NCBI RefSeq assembly: GCF_001043175.1 | Contig: NZ_CP011494.1 | Location: 2,666,001-2,730,000 of the forward strand | Length of the DNA: 64,000 nt | Direction of reading: 5' to 3' | Source: Marinobacter psychrophilus | GTDB taxonomy: Bacteria; Pseudomonadota; Gammaproteobacteria; Pseudomonadales; Oleiphilaceae | Shown here: positions 1 through 27,047 of the stretch, piece by piece | Position numbering within the stretch: the first letter of the stretch is position 1 | Layout of the letters: the number at the start of each line of letters is the position of its first letter | Program-made: the position numbers and the translations under genes | The notes under the pieces: generated by a model | Seen by the model: the letters and a program-made list of their open reading frames with translations, nothing else | What the model was told of the DNA's origin: nothing | Databases searched by the model: none

Positions 1-1321
1 TCACGCGGAACAGTTCTGAAAACTCGGGATCGTATTCCTGCAGCAGCATCCAGGTTTCACGGTCGCCGAACAGTACGATTTTCACGTCCAGTGGCACCGG
101 CTCGGGCTCAATGGAGATGGTGCCAGACAGGGTCAGCTCGCGCTCCAGGGAGTTAATCTGGATACAATGAGACTGCAACGCACGCTTGAGGGCGTCCCAA
201 GCGAACGGCTGCTCCAATACTTTTGTGGCGTCCATCAACAGATAACCGCCGTTGGCGCGATGCAAGCTGCCCGGGCGAATCAGCGAAAAGTCGGTAAACA
301 CCGTGCCTTTATAGGTAACGTTTTCAACGTAACCGAACAAGTTGTGATAAGTCGGGTTGTCTTCCACCTCTACTGGAATCTCTTTGGTTTTCTGATGTAC
401 CAGCAGATTCACCAAATAGCGCCGCGGCATTTTCTTATCCAGTGACGCGTAGGCAATCATGGCCTGCTCATCATCGTCATCCAGAAAAATCTCCAGATTC
501 TCGGACAAATCTTTACGCACGGCTTCAATAAAACCGGCCACTTCTGGCAGGTCTTTGTAACGTTCTTTTAACTCATCAATCTGGTGACCGGTAACGCCTT
601 CCAGAGTTTCCTGGTTTAGCGCTTGCAGTTTGTCAGCGTATTCCTGCTCCCAGTCGGCCAGTTTGCGCAGGGCGCGGCGCAGGCGTTTTTCGAGATTATT
701 GACAATTTCTTCGAACTTTTCGCGTTGAGCGTCCGTCAGGGCCTTAAACGACTCGGCGGTATGAGCCTCATCACCACTCATAGCCACTAGCCGATAACCG
801 CCCGGGGTGCTTATGGTCAAGCTGACTTTTTGACGCTTGGCCTGCTTCGCGACTTTTTCCAGCTCACCATCCTGAAGCGCGGTGTAATCGCTTTTCAACT
901 TTTCAGCACGTTCCAAAAAACCATCGCTATCGAAGGTTTGCGGAATCACCTTCACCAGCCGGCTCATCAGTTTTTCCATATCGCGTTTTAGCTGCGTGCC
1001 CTGACCGGCCGGCAGTTTCAGCAGCTTTGGCACCCGCGGCTCTTCAAAGTCGGCCACGTAGCACCAATCGTGGGATTTCAGATTGGTGTCTTTATGGTGT
1101 TCCAGGTACCGCAGCATCATGGTGCGCTTACCCAGGCCATTGATACCGACCGCATACACGTTGTAACCACCGTGCGGCATAGCCAGCGCAAATCGCACCG
1201 CTTCCTGAGCACGATTCTGACCCACAATTTCAGCCAGGGGCTCTAGCTGGCGGGTGCTTTTAAATGGCAAATCTTTCAGAACACAGGCTTTATAGAGCTG
1301 ATGCGAAGGCAATGACTTCAA
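1..1321 (-). CDS. Lon-like AAA+ ATP-dependent protease, N-terminal part (cut by window start)
   Basis: The frame is open from a TTG at 1321 to the window edge, about 440 residues, and the C-terminal protease part lies outside. The N-terminus has the LonB-like AAA layout: a Q-N-R-A-Q-E-A helix, then a Walker A loop GINGLGKRT near residues 50-58, then a long helical insertion. Near the edge the residues GDRETWMLLQEYDPEFSELF match the conserved segment of this family. The TTG start is chosen because an in-frame TAA lies two codons upstream and AGGA sits seven bases before it. The family consists of soluble ATP-driven proteases related to Lon but without its N-terminal substrate domain. Substrates are unknown. 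Confidence 0.85.
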   Translation of the reverse strand, partial: MKSLPSHQLYKACVLKDLPFKSTRQLEPLAEIVGQNRAQEAVRFALAMPHGGYNVYAVGINGLGKRTMMLRYLEHHKDTNLKSHDWCYVADFEEPRVPKLLKLPAGQGTQLKRDMEKLMSRLVKVIPQTFDSDGFLERAEKLKSDYTALQDGELEKVAKQAKRQKVSLTISTPGGYRLVAMSGDEAHTAESFKALTDAQREKFEEIVNNLEKRLRRALRKLADWEQEYADKLQALNQETLEGVTGHQIDELKERYKDLPEVAGFIEAVRKDLSENLEIFLDDDDEQAMIAYASLDKKMPRRYLVNLLVHQKTKEIPVEVEDNPTYHNLFGYVENVTYKGTVFTDFSLIRPGSLHRANGGYLLMDATKVLEQPFAWDALKRALQSHCIQINSLERELTLSGTISIEPEPVPLDVKIVLFGDRETWMLLQEYDPEFSELFRV

Positions 1322-20498: not shown

Positions 20499-20523
20499 GA
20501 GGACAGATTTCAAATCCGTTTCC
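20499..20523. repeat. 25-bp palindromic intergenic repeat, copy 2 (degenerate)
   Basis: Reads GAGGACAGATTT, then AAATCCGTTTCC around a central C, matching copies at 16749, 40711 and 51542 with several changes. It lies between convergent djlA and the RND gene and abuts the RND stop codon. Confidence 0.65.
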
Positions 20524-23500
20524 TAACTCCGAGCTTGTCCCTTAGCTCCGAGCAACTGTTTCACTTTCTGCCCGGTTTGTTCGCCCAATACCAGCAGCGC
20601 CGGTGTTAGCAGCAGCGTAAGCAGGGTTGCGAACGTCAGTCCACCAGCAATGGCGCTGGACATCTGGGTCCACCATTGGGTAGATGGCGCGTTTAACCCT
20701 AGCGACGGCGTAATCAAATCCACGTTTATGCCCAGTACCATCGGCATCAGGCCCAGCACTGTGGTAATGGCGGTTAGCAACACCGGGCGCAGGCGCAAAC
20801 AGCCGGTTTCCAGTGCCGCTGCCGCCGGTTCCATGCCGTCGGCCCGCATCTGGTTGTAAGTATCGATCAGAATGATGTTGTTGTTCACCACAATACCGGC
20901 CAACGCAATGGTGCCCATTCCCACCATCACAATGCCAAACGGCTGACTGTTCAGTAACAGGCCCAGCAGCACGCCGGCGGTGGACAGCACAATGGCCGAC
21001 AAAATCAAAAAGCTTTGGTACAGCGAGTTGAACTGGGTCACCAGAATCAGCAGCATCAGCCCTATAGCCACCATAAATGCGTTAATCAGGAAGTTGGCCG
21101 CTTGTTGCTGATCTTCACTTTCGCCACCTTCAAGCACGGTTGTGCCGTCCGGCAACTCGGGCATGGTGGCGCGCAGCTCTCGCAGCGCCTCTTCCACCTG
21201 CCGGCCGGGTTGCAGATCGGCTTTGATGGTGATGGTACGGCGGCCATCCACCCGCACGATGTTGCCGGTTTTATCACCGGGTTCTAAACTGACAAACTGC
21301 GACAGCGGTACCTGGCCCCGTGAGGTGTTCAGGGTTTGCCGTTCCAGCTGATCCAGTTCACGCCAGTTGTTAGGAACGCGTACCACAATGTCCACTTCGT
21401 CACGCACGTCTTCAGGGCGGTAACTGGCCAGTACCAAGCCGTTGGTAACCAGCCGCACGGCGTTGCCGATGCTGGCGACGTCGGTACCGAAACGGGCAGC
21501 CGCTTCGCGGTTCACCTTCAGGCGCCATTCAATACCGTCAAGGCTGCGGTCGTCTTCGGTGTCGACATACGCGTCCTGCGCTAGCATTTGCGCACGAATC
21601 GCGCTGACCGCGGCTTCCAGCTCGTCGGGATTACCGCTGCTAACCAGTAACTCAATCGGTTTGCCACCGGCCGGGCCATCTTCCTGCTTACGAAACTCTA
21701 ACTCCACACCCGGAATGTCTGCGGTGCGCTGGCGAAAATCCTCCAGAATAATATCGGCGGCACGCCGGGTGTACCAATCGTTGAACTGAAACTGCAATAC
21801 ACCAATAACGTCCGGCGCCATCTGCTGGCTGCCGCCGATCATCGAACGGCTGTACAAGGCACGTACTTCGGGCATGCCCTGTAAACGGCTGGCCACGGTC
21901 TGCACAATGGCGTCGCGCTCCCAGATGGACAAATCGCCGCGGGCGCGCACCTGAACCTGGGCCGACTCCGGTTCTACGCTGGGGAAAAATTCCACGCCGT
22001 GGTTTAAACGGCCATAAATCGCGTAAACCACGCCAATCACCAGAATCACCGCTAGTAGCGTCAGTCCGGGGCGACGCAATATGGCGGCCAGGGTGGAGCG
22101 GTAGACGCCCATCAGCTGATTGTCTGTTTGCACCGCCCGCGCCCGGCGACCGCCGCCAATACCACCAAGCACCGGCAAAAACACCAGTGCCATCGCTAAA
22201 GACGCCAGCAGGCAGATAATCACCGTGATAGGCAAAAACTTCATGAATTCGCCGACCAAACCGGGCCAGAACAGCAAAGGCACAAACACTGCCAAGGTGG
22301 TCGCAGTGGATGCAATAATGGGCCAGGCCATGCGGCTGGCGGCTTCGCCCCAGGCATTGTTAACGTTCAGGCCGTCCGACAGATTCCGGTCTGCCAGCTC
22401 CGATACCACAATGGCGCCGTCTACCAGCATACCGGTGACCAGAATCAGGGAAAACAGCACAATAATGTTAAGGGTCATACCCATAGACCAGATCACCAGA
22501 ATTGCCGTCAGGAAGGCGCCCGGAATGGTCAGGCCGACTAAGATTGCCGCACGGGGCCCCATGGTCGCGATGATCACGATGGTGACCAGCACAATGGCGG
22601 TCAGCACGTTGTTCAGCAGGTCGATCAGCATGTCCTGCACCTCGCCCGACTGGTCCATGATGTAACGGATATCCAGCTCGTCGGGCAGACGTTCTTGCGC
22701 CGCCACGATCAATGCGCGCACCTGAGTACTGGTCGCGATGATATTGGCGCCGGAACGCTTGGACACTTCCAGCACCAGTGCCGGTTCACCGTTAATACGG
22801 GCAAAGCCCTGGGGGTCTTTGTAACTGCGCTGCAACATGGCCACATCACCAAAGGTGATCACCGTGTCGCCATCTACCTTGACCGGTATCGACATCACAT
22901 CTTCGACGTTTTCAATCACGCCTGGCACTTTCAACGTCATCCGTCCGTTGCCGGTGTCAATAGAGCCAGCCGCCACCAGCTGATTGTTACGCGACACCAG
23001 TGTGCCTAACTGGTTGAAGTCCAAGCCGTAGCTTTCCAGCACCTGGGGATCGACCACAATTTCCAGCAGATCTTCGCGGTCGCCGGCAATGTCAACTTCA
23101 AGAATTTCCGGAATGGCTTCGATGGCGTCTTTCAAGCCGCGGGCGATAAAGATCAGTTCACGCTCGGCCAGCGGTCCGGAGAGGCCAATAGACATCACAG
23201 GAAACAGTGCAATATTTACTTCATTCACCCGCGGCTCGTCGGCTTCCTCTGGCAGATTGCTGCGTGCCGTATCCACCTGTTCGCGCACGTCTTGCAGGGC
23301 TTTGTCGGCGTCGAAACCGGCGTCAAATTCCAGCATGACGGAAGCGTGGCCTTCGGAGGCGTTGCCGCGCATTTCCTTAACGCCTTCCAGCGAGCGCAAC
23401 TCCTGCTCCATCGGCCGCACTAACAAACGCTCGGCGTCTTCCGGACTGACGCCTTCGAGGCTCATGGATACATAAATCATCGGAATGGCGATGTCAGGAT

Positions 23501-23612
23501 TGGCTTCTTTGGGAATGGCCATGTAGGCGGCGTAACCGCCAACCACCAGAAATAGAAGTAACAGCAGCGTGGTGCGGCTGCGGTCCATGGCTGCAAATAT
23601 AAGAGAGCGCAT
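20523..23612 (-). CDS. RND efflux transporter permease (AcrB superfamily)
   Basis: 1029 residues with the RND layout: an N-terminal membrane helix (14-32), a large periplasmic loop, helices 2-6, a second periplasmic loop, and helices 8-12. The inner-membrane pump exports substrates through a tripartite complex using proton flow. In TM4 the sequence is GMLVDGAIVVSE, with Asp398 followed by Gly where AcrB has Asp407-Asp408. In TM10 it has VNNNIILID with Asn910 at the AcrB Lys940 position. The canonical relay is therefore altered, which marks a separate RND subfamily. It forms an operon with the adaptor upstream; no TolC-like gene is present. Confidence 0.93.
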   Translation of the reverse strand: MRSLIFAAMDRSRTTLLLLLFLVVGGYAAYMAIPKEANPDIAIPMIYVSMSLEGVSPEDAERLLVRPMEQELRSLEGVKEMRGNASEGHASVMLEFDAGFDADKALQDVREQVDTARSNLPEEADEPRVNEVNIALFPVMSIGLSGPLAERELIFIARGLKDAIEAIPEILEVDIAGDREDLLEIVVDPQVLESYGLDFNQLGTLVSRNNQLVAAGSIDTGNGRMTLKVPGVIENVEDVMSIPVKVDGDTVITFGDVAMLQRSYKDPQGFARINGEPALVLEVSKRSGANIIATSTQVRALIVAAQERLPDELDIRYIMDQSGEVQDMLIDLLNNVLTAIVLVTIVIIATMGPRAAILVGLTIPGAFLTAILVIWSMGMTLNIIVLFSLILVTGMLVDGAIVVSELADRNLSDGLNVNNAWGEAASRMAWPIIASTATTLAVFVPLLFWPGLVGEFMKFLPITVIICLLASLAMALVFLPVLGGIGGGRRARAVQTDNQLMGVYRSTLAAILRRPGLTLLAVILVIGVVYAIYGRLNHGVEFFPSVEPESAQVQVRARGDLSIWERDAIVQTVASRLQGMPEVRALYSRSMIGGSQQMAPDVIGVLQFQFNDWYTRRAADIILEDFRQRTADIPGVELEFRKQEDGPAGGKPIELLVSSGNPDELEAAVSAIRAQMLAQDAYVDTEDDRSLDGIEWRLKVNREAAARFGTDVASIGNAVRLVTNGLVLASYRPEDVRDEVDIVVRVPNNWRELDQLERQTLNTSRGQVPLSQFVSLEPGDKTGNIVRVDGRRTITIKADLQPGRQVEEALRELRATMPELPDGTTVLEGGESEDQQQAANFLINAFMVAIGLMLLILVTQFNSLYQSFLILSAIVLSTAGVLLGLLLNSQPFGIVMVGMGTIALAGIVVNNNIILIDTYNQMRADGMEPAAAALETGCLRLRPVLLTAITTVLGLMPMVLGINVDLITPSLGLNAPSTQWWTQMSSAIAGGLTFATLLTLLLTPALLVLGEQTGQKVKQLLGAKGQARS

Positions 23613-23615
23613 GGA

Positions 23616-24698
23616 TTAGTCCTCGCCGCTGTTTGCGGCAACAGCGGTGACTTCCTCACCCACGCTGACAAATCCAGCGCCGCGGGTAATCAAGCGCAGG
23701 TTGTCCGGCAAGCCATCGACCCAGGCGCCATCGGTTTTCACGCTGAGCAGGCGAACCCGGGAAAACACCACTTTGTTGTCGTCGCTGACGTGTTTTACGC
23801 CAGGCTTACCGTTGTTATCCAACGCCAAAAATGCAGGCGACAGGTGATGGGCGCTGACCTCTGGCAAGGCAATGACCAGGTTGGCGCTGCCACCGGCGAT
23901 GCGCCTTTGCTGCGGGTTTTCTACCTCTACTTCAATCGCAAAGCTGCGGGTACCGGTGTCGGCGGCGCTGGCGACAAACCGGATGCGTCCGCTTAATTCA
24001 TCTCCATCCAGCAACCGCACACTAACCAACTGACCCTCGGCAACTTGGTGCACCGCCTGTTGGGGTATCTGGGCCGTGGCTTTTAGCCGGTCTACCTGAA
24101 CCACGCGCATTAATGCCGAGCCTGGCTGTACCAGATCGCCTGCGTCGATGGACTTCTGATTGACCACGCCATCAAAGGGCGCTTGGGGCGCTAAATCGGC
24201 AATTGCCTGATTGGCCATTTCCAGTTCGGCTTTGGCCTCCGCCAGTTCGCTTTCCAGGCCCAGCAACTCCGACTCAGACGCCAGATTGCGACTGCGCAAA
24301 CTCTGGGCCGCGTTCAAATCCGCGTTCAGTTTGCGCACCCGTGCCTGCCAGCGACTGCGTTCGGCGCTGCGGCCGTCGTCGGTGAGGGTGAGTAATGTTT
24401 GCCCCTGGCTGACGGTGTCACCCAGTTCCACTGCCAGTGATTTCACCGTTGAGGACACCCGTGCCGACACCATAACGGATCGCCACGGTAAGACCTGCCC
24501 CTGTACCAACAATTCGGGCTGATAATTAAGAGCGTTCAGGGTTGTGACCTCTACCCGGCTCAACTCAGTGTTCTGCTTTACCGATAGTTCCGGCGCTTTG
24601 GTTTCTGTCTGTTTGATTTCGCCGCTGGCCATCCAGACTAGCAACGCCAAAATTAACAATACAGACAGGCCGACAGAACTCCATTTGAATTTGTTCAT
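23616..24698 (-). CDS. RND efflux periplasmic adaptor (membrane fusion protein)
   Basis: 360 residues from the ATG at 24698 (GAGAG just upstream); an earlier in-frame ATG adds 12 residues of no MFP character. An N-terminal membrane anchor (about 7-23, VGLSVLLILALLVWMASG) is followed by split biotinyl-lipoyl and hairpin segments: VMVSARVSSTVKSLAVELGDTVSQGQTLLTL, a coiled-coil hairpin about 115-165, then APFDGVVNQKSIDAGDLVQPGS. The beta-barrel domain follows. It is three bases upstream of the pump gene and bridges the pump to an outer-membrane channel encoded elsewhere. Confidence 0.92.
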   Translation of the reverse strand: MNKFKWSSVGLSVLLILALLVWMASGEIKQTETKAPELSVKQNTELSRVEVTTLNALNYQPELLVQGQVLPWRSVMVSARVSSTVKSLAVELGDTVSQGQTLLTLTDDGRSAERSRWQARVRKLNADLNAAQSLRSRNLASESELLGLESELAEAKAELEMANQAIADLAPQAPFDGVVNQKSIDAGDLVQPGSALMRVVQVDRLKATAQIPQQAVHQVAEGQLVSVRLLDGDELSGRIRFVASAADTGTRSFAIEVEVENPQQRRIAGGSANLVIALPEVSAHHLSPAFLALDNNGKPGVKHVSDDNKVVFSRVRLLSVKTDGAWVDGLPDNLRLITRGAGFVSVGEEVTAVAANSGED

Positions 24699-24749
24699 AC
24701 TGCTCTCATTGAAAAAACCGGTTGTTGCGAACACGACTGAAAAAACGGG

Positions 24750-24778
24750 TTGCCAAGCGCATAAAAATCAGGTTAGAT
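24750..24778 (+). promoter_or_regulatory. Sigma-70-type promoter of the ilv leader
   Basis: TTGCCA (24750-24755), a 17-bp spacer, and TTAGAT (24773-24778). It predicts a transcript starting near 24785 and a leader ATG about 38 nt downstream. It is found by eye, so the exact hexamers are tentative. Confidence 0.6.
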
Positions 24779-24822
24779 TCTACACAAGTTGGATAGATGA
24801 ATTTTAAAGAGACACATATTAA

Positions 24823-24924
24823 ATGAACTTTAACGTTGTGGTTGTCCTAGTGAAGCTAGTCCTGGTGGTGATGGTATCCCCCGGGGGCTTTTGCGTGGAT
24901 ACACAGTTGAGGCGAGATTTCTAA
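24823..24924 (+). CDS. ilvL: ilvGM leader peptide (Val/Leu-rich, 33 residues)
   Basis: A short ORF from ATG 24823 to TAA 24922-24924. Residues 5-18 read VVVVLVKLVLVVMV: nine valines and three leucines in fourteen codons, with no isoleucine. This is the hallmark of a branched-chain amino acid attenuator peptide (IlvL/IvbL type). It is followed by overlapping antiterminator and terminator stems and then by ilvG. Ribosome stalling at valine or leucine codons when the charged tRNA is scarce would favour read-through. The symbol is by analogy; the sequence is not an orthologue by residue identity. Confidence 0.88.
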   Translation: MNFNVVVVLVKLVLVVMVSPGGFCVDTQLRRDF

Positions 24925-24981
24925 ACCGACACTGCAAACACCAAAGCCCCCGGCACCGAAAGGTTCTGGGGGCTTTTTTTT
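24874..24981 (+). promoter_or_regulatory. ilvGM transcription attenuator (1:2, 2:3 and terminator stems)
   Basis: Terminator: 24943-24957 pairs with 24962-24976, 14 of 15 positions, over a GAAA tetraloop, followed by eight T (24974-24981). Antiterminator: CCGGGGGCTTT (24881-24891) is a perfect 11-bp complement of AAAGCCCCCGG (24943-24953), the terminator's 5' arm. A protector stem GTATCC/GGATAC (24874-24879 with 24897-24902) overlaps the end of the Val/Leu codons. All parts of a classic attenuator are present in order. Confidence 0.88.
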
Positions 24982-25035
24982 GGCCTTTTTGGAAACACTT
25001 GAAACGGTACACCAACACTCAGAAGGACTCAGACC

Positions 25036-26769
25036 ATGAACGGCGCGCAACACATACTTCAGGCTTTCCAACAGCACAGTATTACCACGGTATTTGGCTA
25101 CCCTGGCGGTTGCATCATGCCGCTATACGATGCTCTGGTGGGTGATGTGAGTGTGGAACATGTGCTGTGTCGCCATGAGCAAGGCTGCGCCCTGGCCGCT
25201 GACGGCTACGCCCGCGCAAGCGGCAACTTGGGCGTGTGCATTGCCACGTCCGGCCCGGGCGCTACCAACCTGATCACCGGAGTGGCTAATGCGTTTCAGG
25301 ATTCGGTGCCGCTGCTGGTGATCACCGGCCAGGTGCCCGCCGCGCTGATTGGCACCGATGCGTTTCAAGAGACCGATGTACTGGGCATGACTTTGGGCAT
25401 TGTTAAGCACAGCTATCTGGTGGATGACGCCGACAGCCTGCCCGGCATTCTTATTGAAGCGATTGCATTGGCGCAAAGCGGTCGGCCAGGACCGGTATGG
25501 ATCGATATTCCCAAGGATATTCTGCTGACTCAGGTAAACCTGGAAGCAGCTGATCAGAAGGAACGCGAGGGTTGTGAAAGCGCAGAGCCACGAACTGATT
25601 CGGCCACACATAACGGCGCTATTGATAAAGGCATCAACGAGACTCTGCAGCTGCTGCGCGCGGCCCATAAGCCATTGTTGTACAGCGGCGGGGGCATCAC
25701 GTTAGCCGGCGCTGAGGACAGCTATCGCGAGTTTGCTGAACACTCTGCTCTGCCCGGTGTTGTCACTCTGAAGGGCATTGGCAACCCAGGGCGGCACAAC
25801 CCGAATCACTTGGGCATGCTAGGCATGCACGGCTGCCGTGCAGCCAATCGCGCGGTAGACGAGTGTGATTTACTTCTGGTGTTCGGCGCCCGCCTGGACG
25901 ACCGCGCGACCGGCAAGCCGGAAACCTTTGCTCCCAACGCAAAGATTATTCACATCGATGCCGACAGCGCCGAGTTTCATAAGATCAAAGCGGCGGTATT
26001 AACCATCAGTGCCGATCTTAATGACGTATTGCACGCTCTTACCTGCGGGGTGAAAGCGCAGCCGCTGAATATCGAAGCCTGGCAGAAGCAATGCCGCACC
26101 TGGCTCACTACCGGTGGATTTCAGGCGGCAGATAACGAGGAAGCCCTGGCCCCCATCACCGGCCCGGCGTTTGTGCGCCAGCTTTCCCGTATTGCCAGTG
26201 ATGACACCATTATTTCCTGCGACGTAGGCCAGCACCAGATGTGGGTAGCGCAGCATTATCAGTTCAATCATCCGCGCCAGCACCTGACCAGCGGTGGTCT
26301 GGGCACCATGGGTTTTGGCCTGCCGGCGGCCATAGGTGCGCAGTTTGCCAAGCCGGGCACCAAGGTTATCAACGTAGCCGGAGATGGTTCGTTCATGATG
26401 AACGCCCAGGAGCTGGCGACTATTCGCCGTTATCGCCTGCCGCTGAAAATAATCATTCTGGATAACCAGTGCCTGGGCATGGTGCGCCAGCAGCAGGAGC
26501 TGTTTTACGACAACCGCGAAAGCCATATCAATCTGGACGACAACCCGGATTTTGTGGCTATGGCAAGGGCTTTTGATATTCCAGCCTTGCACATCAACCG
26601 CACAGATCAGATTCGCCGGGGCATCGAGACGATTCTGGCCTTCAAGGGCCCGATGCTGTTGCACGTAACCATTGCCCGTGAGGAGAACGTGTGGCCAACC
26701 GTAAGGCCCGGCGGCAGCAATCGCGACATGATGGAAAAAACCAAACCTGCCAAGGAGAACGCAGCATGA
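25036..26769 (+). CDS. ilvG: Acetolactate synthase isozyme II large subunit
   Basis: 577 residues. ThDP-dependent condensation of pyruvate with pyruvate or 2-oxobutyrate, the first common step of valine, leucine and isoleucine synthesis. The N-terminus MNGAQHILQAFQ through VFGYPGG is close to E. coli IlvG. Glu48 in LCRHEQG is the cofactor-activating glutamate. SGPGATNLITG follows. The ThDP/Mg motif begins GDGSFMMNAQEL and ends at LDNQ. The start has AAGGA eight bases upstream. It lies 55 bp after the attenuator T-run and overlaps ilvM by ATGA. No ilvEDA genes follow, unlike E. coli ilvGMEDA. Confidence 0.95.
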   Translation: MNGAQHILQAFQQHSITTVFGYPGGCIMPLYDALVGDVSVEHVLCRHEQGCALAADGYARASGNLGVCIATSGPGATNLITGVANAFQDSVPLLVITGQVPAALIGTDAFQETDVLGMTLGIVKHSYLVDDADSLPGILIEAIALAQSGRPGPVWIDIPKDILLTQVNLEAADQKEREGCESAEPRTDSATHNGAIDKGINETLQLLRAAHKPLLYSGGGITLAGAEDSYREFAEHSALPGVVTLKGIGNPGRHNPNHLGMLGMHGCRAANRAVDECDLLLVFGARLDDRATGKPETFAPNAKIIHIDADSAEFHKIKAAVLTISADLNDVLHALTCGVKAQPLNIEAWQKQCRTWLTTGGFQAADNEEALAPITGPAFVRQLSRIASDDTIISCDVGQHQMWVAQHYQFNHPRQHLTSGGLGTMGFGLPAAIGAQFAKPGTKVINVAGDGSFMMNAQELATIRRYRLPLKIIILDNQCLGMVRQQQELFYDNRESHINLDDNPDFVAMARAFDIPALHINRTDQIRRGIETILAFKGPMLLHVTIAREENVWPTVRPGGSNRDMMEKTKPAKENAA

Positions 26770-27047
26770 GCCCAACCACCTCACCCGGTATCGCCCAACC
26801 CGACAGCCATATTTTGCGTTGCCGCATGGAGGCGGAAGCGGCTGGTCTTGAGCGTTTGTGCCGCGTGGTACGAGTGCGAGGATTCAGGATTGCCTCTATG
26901 GCGGTGGAAAGCAGCGGAGGGCATTTTGATATCGCTCTGACTCTGGAGGGTGCCCGGCCGATTGCTATGTTGCAGTCGCAGCTGTTGAAGCTGCATACGG
27001 TGACGGAGGTTGTTCTGGGTGTTCAGCAGGCTCGTTCTGTGGCTTGA
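26766..27047 (+). CDS. ilvM: Acetolactate synthase isozyme II small (ACT) subunit
   Basis: 93 residues from the ATG at 26766, overlapping the ilvG stop by four bases. A single ACT-type fold with LERLCRVVRVRGFRIASMAVE and QLLKLHTVTEVVLG corresponds to E. coli IlvM (87 residues) rather than the two-domain IlvH. The subunit activates and stabilises the large subunit; isozyme II in E. coli is not valine-inhibited, which may apply here but is inference. The first 16 residues are Ser/Thr/Pro-rich and not conserved. Confidence 0.9.
   Translation: MSPTTSPGIAQPDSHILRCRMEAEAAGLERLCRVVRVRGFRIASMAVESSGGHFDIALTLEGARPIAMLQSQLLKLHTVTEVVLGVQQARSVA

Follow-up and report, generated by a model that had tools for sequence, protein, structure and literature searches.

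In Escherichia coli, stalling of the ribosome at cognate codons of a leader ORF favors the 2:3 structure of the leader RNA over the 3:4 structure, and RNA polymerase enters the operon. Two E. coli leaders are the closest to the locus considered here. The ilvXGMEDA leader, ilvL (PF08046, NF007744, and, for the enterobacterial RNA, RF02744; read here from NC_000913), has 32 codons, including five for Ile and a VVVIII run before PP, and CCCCGCAC of its terminator arm is complementary to nucleotides 66-73 of the leader ORF. The ilvBN leader, ivbL (PF08049), has Val and Leu codons without Ile. Shewanella ilvG is named among predicted attenuators in a passage citing Vitreschak et al., 2004 (PMC2659441).

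A similar arrangement is found in the window, i.e., the whole stretch of 64,000 nucleotides of Marinobacter psychrophilus DNA analyzed here (Table 1). Region 24750-25035 very probably attenuates transcription of ilvGM in the ribosome-mediated manner of ilvGMEDA (ilvL), responding mainly to Val and Leu. As in ilvL, the leader (33 codons) is placed before ilvG and holds segment 2 inside the ORF; both loci have a C5/G5 terminator stem with T8 and share CACCGAAAGG in the terminator loop region (CACCGAAAGGT in E. coli) as well as a large part of the terminator sequence, and both have a hairpin over the leader stop codon, the one in E. coli (AAGGCTT..AAGCCTT) being longer. Unlike ilvL, the window leader has no Ile codons and reads VVMV at codons 15-18, and no ilvE, ilvD, or ilvA follows ilvGM within 9 kb. 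With ivbL it shares a place ahead of an operon for acetohydroxy acid synthase (AHAS) and Val and Leu codons with no Ile among them, but the enzyme of ilvBN is AHAS I, its terminator has another sequence, and the window peptide does not match PF08049. The first-pass annotation of this DNA had set the locus apart from the E. coli ilvGMEDA leader; the contrast in Ile codons holds for the window, whereas leaders of the Val/Leu-only sort have a precedent in ivbL.

Table 1. Features of the putative attenuator and of the genes downstream (positions in the window).
Feature	Position	Strand	Evidence
sigma-70-like promoter TTGCCA-N18-TAGATT	24750..24779	+	scan; column conservation in genus
leader peptide ORF, Val/Leu-rich, 33 aa	24823..24924	+	sequence; homologue at 116/116 genus ilvG loci (own included)
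control codons 5-18 (9 Val, 3 Leu, 1 Lys, 1 Met)	24835..24876	+	sequence; codon comparison
putative 1:2 (protector) hairpin, uses segment 2	24850..24894	+	24850-24912 fold -18.9 kcal/mol
segment 2 (antiterminator 5' half), within leader ORF	24881..24891	+	exact complement of 24943-24953
small hairpin straddling leader stop codon	24905..24930	+	4-pair helix, 106 sequences
intrinsic terminator (segments 3:4), T8 tail 24974-24981	24943..24981	+	fold -25.1 kcal/mol; covarying stem
Shine-Dalgarno AGAAGGA of ilvG	25021..25027	+	sequence
ilvG, AHAS II large subunit	25036..26769	+	NF006524 829.9 bits, cut-off 738
ilvM, AHAS II small subunit	26766..27047	+	NF008362 E 4.5e-15, 55.3 bits, below cut-off 68

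Existing family models do not recognize the Marinobacter homologue. No Rfam family reaches its gathering score anywhere in the window; in region 24600-25100, searched up to E 10, the best match is RF02744 (E 0.0011, 19.6 bits, with 88 needed), covering the terminator only, and ten other matches (E 0.42-9) were taken as chance. Among the 17 loci searched with RF02744, four matched, all of them upstream of enterobacterial ilvG (Pectobacterium, Serratia, Citrobacter, and Escherichia albertii; L028:2686-2985, L009:2683-2985, L012:2691-2981, L013:2691-2981), and neither Marinobacter locus (L006, L091) did. This family, "Rev39_5p_UTR," takes its name from the Pectobacterium RNA rev_39, given as the 5' UTR of ilvG in the source paper (PMC4710047). 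Its description goes no further than a 5' UTR of soft-rot bacteria, but it is the enterobacterial ilvG leader, i.e., the ilvL attenuator, a function hidden by the name. For both the window leader and the commonest leader of the genus, no Pfam family, PF08046 (IlvGEDA_leader) and PF08049 (IlvB_leader) included, was matched at E up to 10, and no NCBIfam leader model was matched either, while the positive controls, E. coli ilvL and ivbL, were matched by the Pfam and NCBIfam leader models. In the open-licence literature we found no publication on a Marinobacter acetolactate synthase leader, nor one joining ilvGM with Marinobacter.

Leader, promoter, and genes in the window

The leader ORF begins with ATG at 24823 and ends with TAA at 24922-24924, and its 33 sense codons, read directly, give the peptide MNFNVVVVLVKLVLVVMVSPGGFCVDTQLRRDF. 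The ORF proposed in the first-pass annotation was exact to the base, including the nine Val and three Leu codons, so that 12 of the 14 codons 5-18 are Val or Leu, the clustering of end-product codons characteristic of attenuators. Among the 588 ATG-started ORFs of 12-60 aa in the window, only this one has at least 10 V/L/I per 14 codons (12, vs. nine in the next best), and it is also alone in combining such codons with a complement of 9 nt or longer and a T run within 100 nt. First-order Markov resampling (20 resamples, 18451 ORFs) produced no ORF reaching 12 V/L/I and none with the combination of V/L/I codons, complement, and T run.

The promoter-like pair noted earlier ahead of the leader is present as well, with nine of 12 consensus matches (shuffles average 0.4 such sites) and its -10 box ending 43 nt 5' of the leader ATG. 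The motif accompanies the leader in the genus: over 115 distinct upstream sequences, the TTGC columns are more than 95% conserved and the TAGATT (-10) columns mostly more than 80%, and a loose TTG..TA motif occurs at all 116 genus loci, a count that carries no chance control. Conservation extends beyond the -10 box, over region 24771-24785 (GGTTAGATTCTACAC in the window, GGGGTAGATTCTACAC as the genus form), and includes the near-palindrome GTAGATTCTAC, which could be an operator. The divergent neighbors on the minus strand (20523-24734) are, by the look of their translations, an RND-type efflux transporter and its membrane-fusion partner.

The downstream enzyme is of the IlvG type, as had been claimed, its model match lying above the cut-off (Table 1); the closest named IlvG relatives are from Marinobacter species (74-76%). 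A Shine-Dalgarno-like motif precedes ilvG at 108 of the 116 genus loci, and ilvG and ilvM share an ATGA overlap. When E. coli IlvM, IlvE, IlvD, IlvA, and IlvC were used as queries against the next 9 kb, only IlvM was matched. In this 4.0-Mb single-contig genome, threonine deaminase (ilvA) was found above the family cut-off at C1:3598386, about 0.9 Mb from ilvG, and a simple scan upstream of ilvI (L002/L201) and ilvA (L205) revealed no V/L/I-rich leader with a nearby T run (best 8/14). Among 33 Marinobacter loci whose downstream 1.5-3 kb was inspected, one (L104) carries an IlvD-like gene behind ilvM in the same orientation (positions 4-867, minus strand; over 299 aa, 38% to E. coli IlvD).

Conservation and alternative RNA structures

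With the IlvG threshold set at E of at most 1e-150, 116 of 124 genus genomes match, the window's own included (the match in G092 is partial), and a homologous leader is found ahead of ilvG at all 116 loci, own included, with the caveat that the leaders were picked by a V/I/L-run pattern and the selection is therefore biased towards finding one. They form 62 distinct peptides with 10-13 V/L/I in the best 14 codons, the commonest, MNLNAVIVLVKLVLVVVVPSGGFCVDKRVR, occurring in 24 genomes.

The codon comparison covers 113 of the 116 genomes and 82 distinct leaders (L193, L194, and L199 were omitted as out of register). In codons 5-18 of these 82 leaders, 24 of 41 possible synonymous single-nucleotide variants are observed, vs. 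15 of 85 nonsynonymous ones (Fisher p 8e-6); similarly, 27 of 62 V/L/I-preserving variants are seen, vs. 12 of 64 V/L/I-losing ones (p 0.004). All four Val codons are in use at codon 6 and three at codon 16. V/L/I is kept in 93-100% of leaders at 11 of the 14 codons, while the constraint is absent or partial at codons 5, 10, and 11 (5, 76, and 11%, respectively). The conservation of Val and Leu codons in relatives, which the first-pass annotation had suggested checking, is thus seen through synonymous variation, and this pattern of codon changes shows selection on the leader at the amino-acid level. The peptide PSGGFCVD from codon 19 onward is also conserved, which can be explained by RNA segment 2.

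RNA structures were compared in 106 distinct genus sequences, with partners slid along the alignment as controls and, for z scores, mononucleotide shuffles of 22 of the 106. The earlier claim of a strong terminator with eight T after the leader is well borne out. Its stem (3:4) is 99.8% paired with 88 double-change cells (14-80% and at most seven cells for slid partners), and the mean energy over the 106 sequences is -28.1 kcal/mol (z -7.33). At all 116 loci, at least one of the C-rich arm and the T tail was detected by a pattern search, and at 110 both were, the remaining six having variants of arm or tail with the stem visible on reading the printed sequence. The terminator was not listed on the plus strand by a simple terminator scan, probably because the stem has an internal bulge.

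The 11-nt complement to the 5' arm of the terminator, noticed inside the leader at first pass, was confirmed: 24881-24891 (CCGGGGGCTTT) is the exact reverse complement of 24943-24953 (AAAGCCCCCGG). The 2:3 pairing is kept in 94.9% of cells (37-73% for slid partners), one internal pair being broken in 46 of the 106 sequences, and the mean energy is -32.1 kcal/mol (z -4.48). The compensatory changes proposed as a check of this pairing did not emerge, as its four double-change cells do not exceed the slid versions (0-10, with 10 for the -1 slide and six for the -2 slide), but this comparison is nearly uninformative because the pairing hardly varies; segment 3 co-evolves with segment 4, not with segment 2. 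The antiterminator 2:3, mutually exclusive with 3:4, is thus supported as a possible structure by conserved complementarity rather than by covariation.

The putative protector stem 1:2 is weakly supported. Its region has a mean energy of -20.3 kcal/mol and is no stabler than shuffled sequence (z -0.18); the outer helix is 85.1% paired (slid, 29-42%) with six double-change cells (slid, 0-9) and, read from the alignment, is weakened in the window, and the pairing probabilities are divided between two alternative folds. The hairpin straddling the leader stop codon may serve in pausing or release. It shows 97.6% pairing and 16 double-change cells, against at most 69% and four for slid partners; the window has three of its four pairs in the alignment, its own fold being a shifted GUUG/CGAC stem of -3.0 kcal/mol.

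Isoleucine codons and amino acid specificity

The absence of Ile codons reported by the first-pass annotation is true of the window leader but is not conserved in the genus. At least one Ile codon is present in 87 of the 116 leaders (none in 29, one in 54, two in 21, three in nine, and four in three). In the 113 in-register leaders, Ile is found at codon 7 in 71, codon 8 in 17, codon 13 in 13, and codon 18 in 13. Codons 15-18, the predicted stall site, read VVVV in 93 of them, VVMV in six, VVVL in one, and VVVI in 13, i.e., Ile is absent in 100. Judging by this codon comparison, the conserved trait is Val at the predicted stall site, not absence of Ile. The early Ile codons probably matter little: with a ribosome footprint estimated to reach some 13 nt past the A site, a stall on codon 7 would be expected to end short of segment 1. 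The multivalent pattern, with codons for all three amino acids, does not occur in the window leader; attenuators as a class do not need it (ivbL has no Ile codon).

Predicted ilvG attenuators of other Gammaproteobacteria have a leader and a terminator before ilvG, as here, but all 40 leaders compared outside the clade defined below (24 of 80 named loci and 16 of the 19 loci L215-L233) contain 2-7 Ile codons; these were chosen as the most V/L/I-rich short ORF, with the resulting bias towards finding one (L229 is weak, 7/14), and the 24 from named loci include identical ones (L012, L013, and L018; also L009 and L031). The three remaining loci of L215-L233 are L215 and L223, with one Ile codon each and inside the clade, and L225, omitted for having no clear leader and an IlvG with internal stops. 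In-frame stop codons were observed in the IlvG matches of both L225 and L226 (order-level genomes G320 and G402).

In the midpoint-rooted FastTree tree of 65 IlvG proteins, 30 Marinobacter sequences, a set that excludes genomes with 3-4 Ile codons, form a clade with L215 of the same family (support 0.98, a value for the clade without L223), and L223 adjoins it. From this topology we infer a single loss of the stall-site Ile at the base of the clade and a partial regain later. We propose, with the chances evenly balanced, that replacement of the stall-site Ile with Val turned an attenuator sensing Ile, Val, and Leu into one sensing Val and Leu in the IlvG clade of Marinobacteraceae and one sister lineage (G391).

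Operon content, with Ile codons tracking ilvA in the operon, was considered as a cause and rejected. In 19 named non-Marinobacter loci, whose leaders have 3-7 Ile codons, ilvA (TIGR01124) follows ilvG at about 2-4 kb in the same orientation, going by coordinates and contig numbers, while ilvE, ilvA, and ilvC are found in none of 33 Marinobacter loci over 1.5-3 kb downstream. However, 16 order-level relatives from other families have leaders with 2-6 Ile codons, and in 15 of these (all but G249) ilvE, ilvD, ilvA, and ilvC were not seen in the downstream stretch (8.4-9 kb in 12 and 1.5-3.3 kb, to the contig end, in three); since relatives without these genes downstream keep 2-6 Ile codons, gene content does not account for them.

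Alternatively, as in E. coli, the attenuator could sense all three branched-chain amino acids or slow translation generally, and the stall-site Ile would have been lost by drift, with specificity unchanged. The Ile codons at positions 7, 8, and 18 in relatives fit this explanation, and so does the behavior of ilvL, where even Pro codons act as stall codons: in the ilvL experiments of one study on E. coli, deficiency in tRNA m1G37 makes ribosomes stall at Pro-Pro just after the Ile run, with ilvG up 3.1-fold, and the rise is lost when the Pro-Pro codons are exchanged for Ala (PMC8384417). Nevertheless, the explanation seems unlikely to us, given codons 15-18 without Ile in 100 of 113 leaders as opposed to at least two Ile codons in 40 of 40 leaders outside the clade, and the window leader without any Ile.

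Proposed mechanism and its standing

A complete ilv-type attenuator, as first suggested for this locus, is supported by the leader at 116 of 116 loci, the accompanying terminator and promoter motifs, and the same topology in E. coli ilvL. The anatomy, conservation, amino-acid-level selection, terminator covariation, and ilvL layout were observed in the sequences, and from them we infer termination, stalling, the 1:2 helix, and specificity. When tRNA-Val and tRNA-Leu are charged, the ribosome would pass codons 9-18 and reach the stop; segment 2 would be held from segment 3, hairpin 24943-24973 would form, and RNA polymerase would halt in the T run at about 24981. With too little charged tRNA-Val or tRNA-Leu, the ribosome would stall at codons about 9-18 and the 1:2 structure would be prevented; 24881-24891 would then pair with 24943-24953, the terminator would be blocked, and ilvGM would be transcribed. 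The E. coli homologue behaves in this way in the ilvL experiments described above (PMC8384417). The Marinobacter Val run, with the Pro or Ser-Pro after it, is about as far from segment 2 as its E. coli counterpart, and stalls there should have the same effect. In the clade, the stall-site Ile of other ilvG leaders would have become Val, and AHAS II should answer mainly to Val and Leu. Counting against the attenuator reading, besides the structural data on 1:2 and 2:3 given above, are the position of segment 2 inside the ORF, whereby a stall at codon 18 would, by our estimate, partly cover it, and the Ile codons in 87 of 116 leaders, at codon 18 in 13 of 113.

We regard it as highly improbable that the leader peptide or the short terminated RNA acts in trans instead, with the terminator as the end of that gene. 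The Pectobacterium counterpart, the 5' UTR rev_39, is presented among novel small RNA candidates (PMC4710047), and a trans-acting leader peptide, peTrpL, is reported (PMC7298713). Still, the conserved alternative pairing, the position before ilvG at all 116 loci, and the failure of the search for the leader in near-complete genomes that lack ilvG point to cis control. Eight genus genomes have no IlvG match at the threshold; in one of them, incomplete (G074, 58%), the leader is present near a contig end, while in the four near-complete ones (at least 91%; G013, G053, G081, G087), BLASTN gave no convincing leader (best E 0.09, 30 nt), with a single query, that of relative L091, which a very divergent leader could escape. 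The best IlvG match in these four is a 40-41% identical AHAS, like the second enzyme of the window genome. The evidence for cis control is compatible with an extra role in trans, which the leader may have.

A coincidental hydrophobic ORF ahead of an ordinary terminator, without attenuation, can practically be dismissed. In its favor, folding of the 191-nt leader as a whole is little better than that of shuffles (z -1.44; of 200 shuffles, 15 were equal or better), and matches to Rfam, Pfam, and NCBIfam at cut-off are absent, but the leader is unique in the window, absent from the Markov resamples, and conserved with synonymous variation at 116 of 116 loci.

The preferred reading, that of an attenuator responding mainly to Val and Leu, would add a genus-wide case, listed in none of the searched family libraries, to the textbook class. 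The 116 genomes with 0-4 leader Ile codons form a natural series on which the link of codon content to amino acid specificity can be tested. If the proposed retuning is true, AHAS II would have been uncoupled from isoleucine supply in this clade, the RNA switch itself being unchanged.
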